Assembly: GCA_900317585.1 (NCBI GenBank)
Contig: ONHG01000020.1
Span: forward strand, 1-47,150
DNA from: an uncultured Lachnospiraceae bacterium
GTDB lineage: Bacteria > Bacillota > Clostridia > Lachnospirales > Lachnospiraceae
Direction: 5' to 3'
Length of the DNA: 47,150 nucleotides
The position numbers were made by a program, and so were the translations under genes. Shown piece after piece: positions 18,762 to 45,822 of this stretch (the first letter of the stretch is position 1; each line of letters opens with the position of its first letter). The notes beneath the pieces were generated by a model. The model was not told the origin of the DNA, ran no database searches, and saw only the letters and a program-made list of their open reading frames with translations.

Positions 18762-18825
18762 GTAACTATTCAGAATCACCCCACGCACATTCGCAAAATC
18801 GCACGATACTCGTGCTTTGTCTACA

Positions 18826-18873
18826 CTCCGTTACGGTCCGCGCTGAACAAACGTCCCCCGGACGTTTAGCGCC
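18826..18873 (+). repeat. 48-nt covarying hairpin motif, copy 1
   Basis: 38 of 48 positions match the copy at 45583-45630. Six of the ten differences form three compensatory pairs: 18844/18868, 18850/18866 and 18853/18863. Confidence 0.75.
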
Positions 18874-18947
18874 GCTGCTACGCAGCTAATTTTACTCATA
18901 TGTGTGGGGGTGGCTCTATTCGAGCCACCTTGAGAACAAGAAAACCT

Positions 18948-18983
18948 GCTGCTTACATGCAAGCATGACGCATCAGCTTTTTT
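18948..18983 (+). terminator. Terminator-like hairpin upstream of the efflux operon
   Basis: GCTG...CAGC enclosing CATGC-AA-GCATG, followed by TTTTTT. It could end an RNA from the element or attenuate the operon. Confidence 0.5.
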
Positions 18984-19045
18984 GTTCTCAGTGGTTCTGA
19001 ATAGTTACTTATAATCAATATATTATAAGAAACCGGGAGGTCGAA

Positions 19046-45363: not shown

Positions 45364-45404
45364 ATCAAAGTCGCGTGAGACAAGCGACAGAAAATCAAAT
45401 ATAT

Positions 45405-45489
45405 GCGGAAGTGTCGGAACTGGCAGACGAGCAAGACTAAGGATCTTGTGATTATTGCAATCGTGTGGGTTCAAGTCCCATCTTCCGCA
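45405..45489 (+). tRNA. tRNA-Leu(AAG)
   Basis: The 85-nt class II tRNA has acceptor arms GCGGAAG / CTTCCGC plus A73, anticodon stem CAAGA / TCTTG with loop CTAAGGA (anticodon AAG), a long variable arm GATT / AATC, and a T arm with TTCAAGT loop. CCA is not encoded. A34 would need deamination to inosine to read CUC and CUU. Confidence 0.95.
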
Positions 45490-45499
45490 TTATAAAATT

Positions 45500-45536
45500 A
45501 AAAAGGGTTAAGCCTTAGGGCTTAGCCCTTTTTGAT
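45500..45536 (+). terminator. Terminator of tRNA-Leu
   Basis: AAAGGGTTAAGCC / GGCTTAGCCCTTT stem with a TTAG loop and T-run. Confidence 0.92.
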
Positions 45537-45539
45537 TTT

Positions 45540-45822
45540 AGAAGCGGAAGCGGACCTTGTCCCCATGGGTTCAAGGTCTCCGCTCCGCTTCGGTCGGCGC
45601 AGAGCAGACATCCCCCGGATGTCTTGCGCCCCATCTTCCGCATGGCTCCGGTCGTTGCGGGGCAGGCGCCCATGGGTCAAGGTCTCGCCTCCGGCTCGGT
45701 CGGCTCGTGGCATGAGGTCCCCCCCCGGACCTCACTCGCCCCATCTTCCGCATGGCTTCGGTTGTTGTAGTGCGAGTGCTCCATGGTTCACGGTCTCGCC
45801 TCTGCACTCCATCTTCCGCGTT
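45540..45822 (+). repeat. GC-rich array of tRNA-3'-end-bearing repeats
   Basis: This ~280-nt stretch is much richer in GC than its surroundings. CCATCTTCCGC, the exact 3' end of the tRNA-Leu gene (45478), recurs at 45631, 45741 and 45809. Each unit opens with a T-arm-like CCATGGGTTCAAGGTCT or variant (45563-45579, 45670-45685, 45781-45796). In between are perfect hairpins, such as 45547-45582 (AGCGGACCTTG / CAAGG..TCCGCT) and TGAGGTCC / GGACCTCA (45713-45734). It lies between the tRNA terminator and the MutS-like gene. Open frames here are GC-rich artefacts. Nothing else is seen up to 45894 apart from the ribosome site. Confidence 0.82.
45583..45630 (+). repeat. 48-nt covarying hairpin motif, copy 2
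   Basis: This matches copy 1 (18826-18873) at 38 of 48 positions. The stems are AGACATCC / GGATGTCT and GCGCA / TGCGC, with paired changes relative to copy 1. Confidence 0.75.

Follow-up and report, generated by a model that had tools for sequence, protein, structure and literature searches.

The tyrT repeats of E. coli (rtT RNA) are tandem units that follow a tRNA gene, the tRNA 3′ end being repeated in each of them, and insertion sequences of the IS66 type make 8-bp repeats. REPs of the GTAG and CGTC super-families are short dispersed palindromes with an unpaired tag at one end (PMC3733652). There, the CGTC REPs are described as without a transposase of their own and with a short tail rich in C, variants of the CGTC tag such as TGTC and CCTC are reported, and Firmicutes is not among the phyla listed for the two super-families; the word itself has 0 occurrences in the main text (PMC3733652). 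A further point of comparison is the Clostridiales-1 RNA (RF01699, PMC2864571).

Here we describe a hairpin module found in three copies in a 47,150-nt stretch of DNA from an uncultured Lachnospiraceae bacterium (contig ONHG01000020.1; hereafter, the window). Like the REPs, it is a short, dispersed stem-loop with an unpaired tag at one end; the short C-rich tail it shares with the CGTC REPs. It differs from them in its 17-nt conserved leader, its one-sided 4-nt bulge, its two stems, its residence in tRNA T-loops and tRNA 3′-end echoes, and its tag, which is not GTAG or CGTC; GGTC stands before the hairpin in nearly all rows of a 29-copy alignment. Some of its units share with the tyrT repeats the tandem layout after a tRNA and the 3′-end copies, but differ in sequence, in phylum, in the many tRNAs concerned and in the hairpin that lies in each unit's T-loop. 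The carrier of one copy shares inverted ends and 8-bp flanking repeats with IS66-type MITEs, whereas the module itself has neither terminal inverted repeats nor such a target repeat. With RF01699 the module has a short overlap in one genome.

Results

The earlier note on this DNA reported that 18826-18873 and 45583-45630 share 38 of 48 bases without gaps, and this identity was confirmed; for comparison, in 100 dinucleotide-Markov sequences as long as the window, searched on both strands, the best match of the first 48-mer had a mean of 24.9 and a maximum of 27. The three double changes pointed out there (18844/18868, 18850/18866 and 18853/18863) proved to be true pairs of the hairpin predicted by DNA folding in both copies. 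The remaining four differences (18831, 18833, 18839 and 18847) fall outside both long stems, which are indeed free of uncompensated changes. Copy A lies in an inverted-repeat element (a MITE) and copy B in repeats of a tRNA-Leu 3′ end. The actual unit is a module of ~56 nt with an insertable part of ~51 nt; it has the 48-base motif as its core and extends beyond the motif at both loci (Table 1). A third, diverged copy (copy C) had been missed; its outer stem is mostly unpaired, its fold is no better than that of many shuffles (z -1.39), and it has close relatives at L022 and L036. Near twins of copy A occur in the same MITE in the source genome (L009) and in G015 (L029). Recent copying between the two window loci was ruled out, both being members of a large family.

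Table 1. Features of the window that concern the module; R1 scores are from a search over 100 sources.
Feature	Coordinates	Strand	Basis and remarks
MITE, 247 nt, host of copy A	18762..19008	.	inverted ends GTAACTATTCAGAA../..TTCTGAATAGTTAC; flanked by 8-bp repeats TCATAATC/TTATAATC, 7/8 identical
Module copy A, 56 model columns	18819..18874	+	R1 match, 78.4 bits (copy A among R1's building sequences)
Insertable part of copy A, ~51 nt	about 18822-18872	+	MITE lengths with and without module
Bulged hairpin of copy A	18840..18872	+	DNA fold, pair counts
Outer stem of copy A	18840-18844/18868-18872		
Bulge of copy A	18845-18848		
Inner stem of copy A	18849-18856/18860-18867		
Loop of copy A	18857-18859		
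tRNA-Leu (AAG)	45404..45490	+	ARAGORN; Rfam RF00005
Terminator-like hairpin between tRNA and echo units	45500..45533	+	scan, with core stem at 45517-45529; outer limits drawn visually
Left part of echo unit 1	45543..45575	+	degenerate inverted and direct tRNA-Leu 3′-end copies, read by eye; terminates in T-loop sequence GGGTTCAAG
Module copy B	45576..45631	+	R1 match, 80.4 bits (copy B among R1's building sequences)
tRNA-Leu 3′-end echo CCCATCTTCCGCAT	45630..45643	+	exact 14-nt match; repeat D1
Module copy C (diverged; loop rich in C, outer stem poor)	45682..45741	+	R1 match, 26.8 bits, E 8e-4
Second tRNA-Leu 3′-end echo	45740..45753	+	repeat D1/D2
Third unit, internally deleted	45781..45821	+	repeats D1 and D3; read by eye; T-loop-like start, module-leader remnant, echo CCATCTTCCGCG

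Alignment of 29 copies (27 distinct) gave the plan of the module: a 17-nt, TMCGCTCCGCTTCGGTC-like leader, GTCTMCRCTCCGYTNCGGTC, and then a hairpin with an outer stem of 5 bp, a 4-nt bulge on the 5′ side, an inner stem of 8 bp and a 3-nt loop. In this alignment (A3, which is the 35-row alignment A2 minus six rows with gaps or an extra base) 97.9% of the cells are paired and 57 show double changes, vs. 13.5 in shuffles; with the partners slid, pairing falls to 26-37%. Among 129 distinct rows, 97.4% of the cells are paired and 339 double changes were counted against 90.8 in shuffles. Because both alignments had been fitted to or gathered with the structure, an independent test was made with an exact pattern that spans the leader and the beginning of the outer stem and is blind to the inner stem. 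It gave at least 126 sites, from at least 119 named-genome stretches plus 4 viral stretches. A bulged hairpin with at most two mismatches followed at 118 of the 126 leader sites listed, compared with 11 of 125 after shuffling of the downstream bases, and 109 of the 118 listed hairpin copies have a bulge of 4 and a loop of 3, with an inner stem of 7 or 8 bp. The structure is real, and its covariation in the wider alignments is far above that of shuffled and slid controls. A small 5′ hairpin (columns 10-12/16-18) was weakly supported, with 29 wobble cells and 1 double-change cell, and was set aside.

Matches to the model R1 were found in 43 of 60 genomes of the genus (E≤0.01), in 35 of 295 genomes and 22 of 130 genera of the order (E≤1e-5), and in 5 of 398 genomes of the phylum, four of these in the bacterium's own family (source genome included) and one, G638, outside the class. 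The G638 copy (L357, G638:C4:11131-11186) is a full-score module with no tRNA nearby, and would reflect horizontal transfer or contamination. The module is an element of gut bacteria related to Roseburia; carriers among the leader-pattern matches listed include Butyrivibrio, Coprococcus comes, Roseburia porci, Mediterraneibacter and [Clostridium] asparagiforme. That it might be a portable module, as the earlier note had proposed, was borne out by its presence in several contexts.

One such context is the MITE. Copy A interrupts an IS66-like MITE of which relatives without the module exist. The 247-nt carrier has both terminal inverted repeats and a target-site duplication; among 17 MITE copies the flanking 8-mers agree at 8/8 positions in 3, at 7/8 in 6 and at fewer in the remaining 8. 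A query covering 18770-19010 gave 29 matches in the source genome and matched in 11 of 40 genomes, source genome included. Some of these copies are without the middle, query positions 1-52 directly adjoining 103-241, and positions 50-104 are found elsewhere without either part; the MITE has thus taken up the module. Complete MITE copies measure 245-247 nt with the module (n=3) and 191-197 nt without it (n=10). One of nine IS66 transposase loci (L366, G017) has a MITE-like end, with one base different, shortly past the domain; two further end matches at IS66 loci, with four changes, may be chance. The ends of the module itself, GTCT.../...GCGCC, are not inverted repeats, and no target duplication was seen in comparisons of empty and filled sites (MITE copies and tRNA-Asn). 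On the minus strand, 18922-18997 of the MITE is weakly like Clostridiales-1 RNA (18.6 bits, below the cut-off of 48).

Alleles with and without the module at one and the same site were seen both in MITE copies and in tRNA-Asn, species and paralogues being compared. Removal of 51 nt gave normal ARAGORN tRNAs for Asn (G305), Lys-CTT (G351) and Pro-CGG (G059), the last of which also gave a longer ARAGORN call in its filled form. When ten relatives of the tRNA-Asn gene were aligned, eight had no insert and two (G369 and G354) carried in the same T-loop a different hairpin, MOD2, which by eye follows the same design; module and MOD2 thus occupy one tRNA-Asn T-loop in different species. A pattern search for uninterrupted tRNA-Pro(CGG) had 0 matches in 60 genomes, so that no empty site was seen for the G059 case. 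In the G351 array a further Lys-CTT gene is intact, so that a loss of function would be bearable there. Ten array loci picked from earlier hits yielded ten T-loop interruption candidates, and their reversed sequences none. Seven of the ten carry the module (the Asn and Lys-CTT cases of G305 and G351) or MOD2 (Asn twice, Lys-TTT twice, Met once); those in Ser (L174), Ile (L175) and Gln (L183) have neither hairpin by eye and were dropped. MOD2 sits in the T-loops of tRNA-Asn, Lys and Met genes in the arrays L163, L168, L175, L176 and L182, where R1 did not detect it (search over 55 sources). L161 was rejected as an interruption, the module lying beside the tRNA and outside the gene.

The module also occurs beyond tRNA 3′ ends, and in the window copies B and C lie in repeats of the preceding tRNA-Leu's 3′ end. 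In three samples, 17 of 30, 6 of 29 and 7 of 40 loci had a module overlapping a called tRNA or at most 250 nt 3′ of one, and 13, 23 and 33, respectively, had no tRNA neighbour; the 30-locus sample, consisting of the top-scoring genus matches, is richer in tRNAs than the 40 others chosen from the same list or the 29 order loci. L128, inside an uncalled interrupted tRNA, was left out of these counts. Among the leader-pattern copies listed, 14 of 118 lie on the 3′ side of a tRNA vs. 5 of 118 on the 5′ side, and 104 of 118 have no tRNA on the 3′ side. At distances above 1 kb from the module, these same stretches gave a background of 250 of 619321 bases, and we estimate the genome-wide value to be higher, perhaps 0.5%. 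There is an excess of the module just beyond tRNA 3′ ends, and most copies lie away from tRNAs.

For 55 module-tRNA pairs 40-110 nt apart, which include related loci and tandem copies, 42 modules are followed by that same tRNA's 3′ end, with ten anticodon types represented. An echo was scored when, within 24 nt after the module, 8-15 nt exactly matched sequence from the final 15 nt of the tRNA, and by arithmetic an 8-nt match is expected by chance in about 0.3% of cases. Between tRNA and module an inverted copy of the tRNA 3′ end was detected in 33 of the 55 pairs (p≤0.05 in shuffles, ~3 expected); in the window this copy is borderline (p 0.065). The usual order is tRNA, terminator, inverted partial copy, T-loop, module and 3′-end echo, often with another terminator. 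In the 55-pair list the module has the orientation of the tRNA where this is Gly, Leu or Arg, and the opposite one where it is Lys, Met or Pro. At L081/L149 (G065:C13) two tRNA-Gly genes have several echo-plus-module units between and after them, a layout that resembles the E. coli tyrT repeats.

The insertion site was examined in 118 copies of 56 nt. Their first three columns read GTC in 83, TTC in 22, CTC in 6, ATC in 5 and others in 2, and a C directly follows the hairpin in 116. Nested copies (L020, L091, L147, L186 and L188) occupy steps of the TC^C kind, in one case (L188) in a hairpin tip with the sequence GTC^CCC. The target can be read as approximately (G)TC^C(C). In the tandem arrays L019, L022, L036 and L144 the copies join as GCG|GTCT, which is beyond what simple insertion explains. 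Positions 949-1241 of L144 (G344:C113) hold five head-to-tail copies with a period of ~54 nt and one spacing of ~75. Several genomes contain identical or near-identical copies with common flanks, indicative of recent copying by larger repeats or MITEs and not by the module.

Open frames within 1.5 kb of the listed leader-pattern copies numbered 929, from 115 stretches, and formed 32 shared clusters, the largest of which (7 stretches) consists of ABC-transporter ATPases. Pfam analysis of eight cluster members revealed no transposase; one Pfam-checked member, from a 2-stretch cluster, is a phage integrase with an AAA domain. The idea of a gene that recurs beside the module was rejected, and the open frames near the 118 listed copies revealed no recurrent transposase. 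An IS91-type Y2 transposase was likewise set aside, having matches in 3 of 10 carriers (G015, G003 and G333) and none in the other 7. In the genomes and flanks searched, no transposase dedicated to the module was found.

Discussion

The wide dispersal and strong covariation of the module, together with its presence in otherwise intact units (the MITE, tRNA genes and its own copies) whose relatives are without it, are probably best explained by a non-autonomous mobile DNA element of ~51 nt that consists of a leader and a one-sidedly bulged hairpin. It would insert near a TC^C step, often GTC^CC, without evident target duplication; such steps occur at the 3′ side of tRNA T-loops, in the module's own hairpin tip and in other repeats. 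An enzyme might recognise a folded strand or cruciform, and template switching in the DNA, from one arm to the other, would largely keep the stems paired while recognition preserves the bulge. Insertions in needed tRNAs would be lost, and the surviving copies would be those in redundant tRNA genes, tRNA 3′-end echoes, MITEs or other carrier repeats. We infer the insertions by comparing species with one another, and the exact ends of the element have an uncertainty of 1-3 nt. The best reading at present is a new REP/MITE-like hairpin element with a bias towards the tRNA T-arm.

The earlier note took compensation to imply that structure is under selection, as opposed to recent copying, and its implied reading, a structured RNA (small RNA, or processing or stability element) under RNA-pairing selection, could account for the strong covariation and for the conserved bulge and loop; transcription past the tRNA terminator could be possible for some copies. 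Selection on an RNA strand should clearly favour G-U over A-C. Instead, wobble pairs are nearly absent from the long stems (~8 wobble vs. 338 double-change cells of ~1,600 in the 129 rows), and A-C mispairs are nearly as common as G-T ones: 10 vs. 17 in 112 distinct leader-pattern copies among the matches listed, and 10 vs. 11 in 118 model-found 56-nt copies. The slight G-T excess in the leader set is favoured by the filter, which counts A-C, not G-T, as a mismatch. In addition, the RNA fold of copy A gives a different register, a terminator-like hairpin separates the tRNA from the module in the window, and the orientation of the module relative to the tRNA varies among isoacceptors. No Rfam family covers the module: in the window, tRNA was the sole family over its gathering score (Rfam 15), and low-threshold scans of both module regions again placed tRNA alone above its cut-off. 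We therefore regard the RNA reading as unlikely. Template switching in DNA can produce compensatory pairs in one event (PMC8794818), and so the covariation seen here is no proof of RNA selection. Template switching between palindrome arms adds the complement of the bulge to the other arm, and 4 of 272 distinct copies (L219, L256, L284 and L294) are perfect palindromes of this form; by eye, L083 has one further palindrome-like copy at 2133. The matched changes in the stems resemble what a DNA hairpin would produce and do not prove an RNA; pairing seems to be kept at the DNA level, and selection on RNA goes beyond the evidence from the module. As stated, then, the claim of structural selection is not supported: the copies belong to a dispersed DNA family, in which double changes are almost without wobble intermediates. 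What stands is that the 4-nt bulge, kept in nearly all copies, argues for some constraint on shape; something, probably a protein, would need the hairpin shape.

Should that protein be a Y1 transposase (RAYT or IS200/IS605 type), the module would be a true REP whose enzyme has since been lost from many hosts. Its size, bulged hairpin and unpaired GGTC before the hairpin, its lack of target duplication and its tandem and nested copies all resemble REPs (PMC3733652). Y1 genes are present in 9 of 17 carriers, among them G169 (15 copies) and G303 (11 copies). Yet the Y1 domain (PF01797) had no match in the source genome and none in 8 of the 17 carriers, including those with 25, 18 and 13 module copies; the flanks of the first-examined Y1 gene loci had no good module match by alignment, and no Y1 gene flanked by the repeat was found there. 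Y1-less carriers and module-less Y1 flanks weaken a Y1 transposase as the present driver, and we consider this origin improbable. Integrases, for their part, commonly leave 3′-end echoes at tRNA genes, and the tRNA-tail copies could be footprints of integrative elements, with attR-like echoes and the module as part of the attachment sites; the 42 of 55 copies that precede their own tRNA's 3′ end would fit. This reading appears very improbable to us, as the observed distances are only 51-103 nt, the duplicated stretch takes in the terminator in L078, and the module is also found in MITEs, in itself, far from tRNAs and, in the interrupted tRNA genes, within the gene.

Under the mobile-element reading, what surprises is the T-arm habit, together with the occurrence of a second family at the same site. 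The two may tentatively be taken as a new class of hairpin mobile elements that aim at tRNA T-arms, with at least two sequence families (module and MOD2) of one architecture and with the 3′-end echoes as part of landing without killing the tRNA, a broader proposal that we hold to be possible rather than probable. Removal of the insert from the RNA might leave some interrupted tRNA genes working; we know of no T-loop inserts in bacteria that are removed in this way. The module would be a widespread mobile hairpin of common gut bacteria, of which we found no description in the open-licence literature. It also carries a warning for RNA discovery, as DNA palindromes kept paired by template switching can give near-perfect covariation, which alone need not prove RNA. 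The rarity of G-T vs. A-C mispairs is a simple check that others can use.

Two observations concern other contexts. In G072, which has many copies, the loci L083 and L142 were run on Rfam, and the module overlaps RF01699 matches (L083 1531-1715 and 2180-2374; L142 1229-1388) by ~26 nt, confined to the last 26 nt of the matches. Near other module copies RF01699 was mostly absent, L142 being the sole match in one ten-locus search. The repeated carrier of the module in G072 resembles this 'RNA', which may itself be a repeat element. At L090, L096, L206, L076 and L131, from several species, modules share a similar non-tRNA context, ..TTTTCTTG or TTTTTCT, the module, and then a CCCTTGTATTTGCCC-like sequence, perhaps an old shared site.
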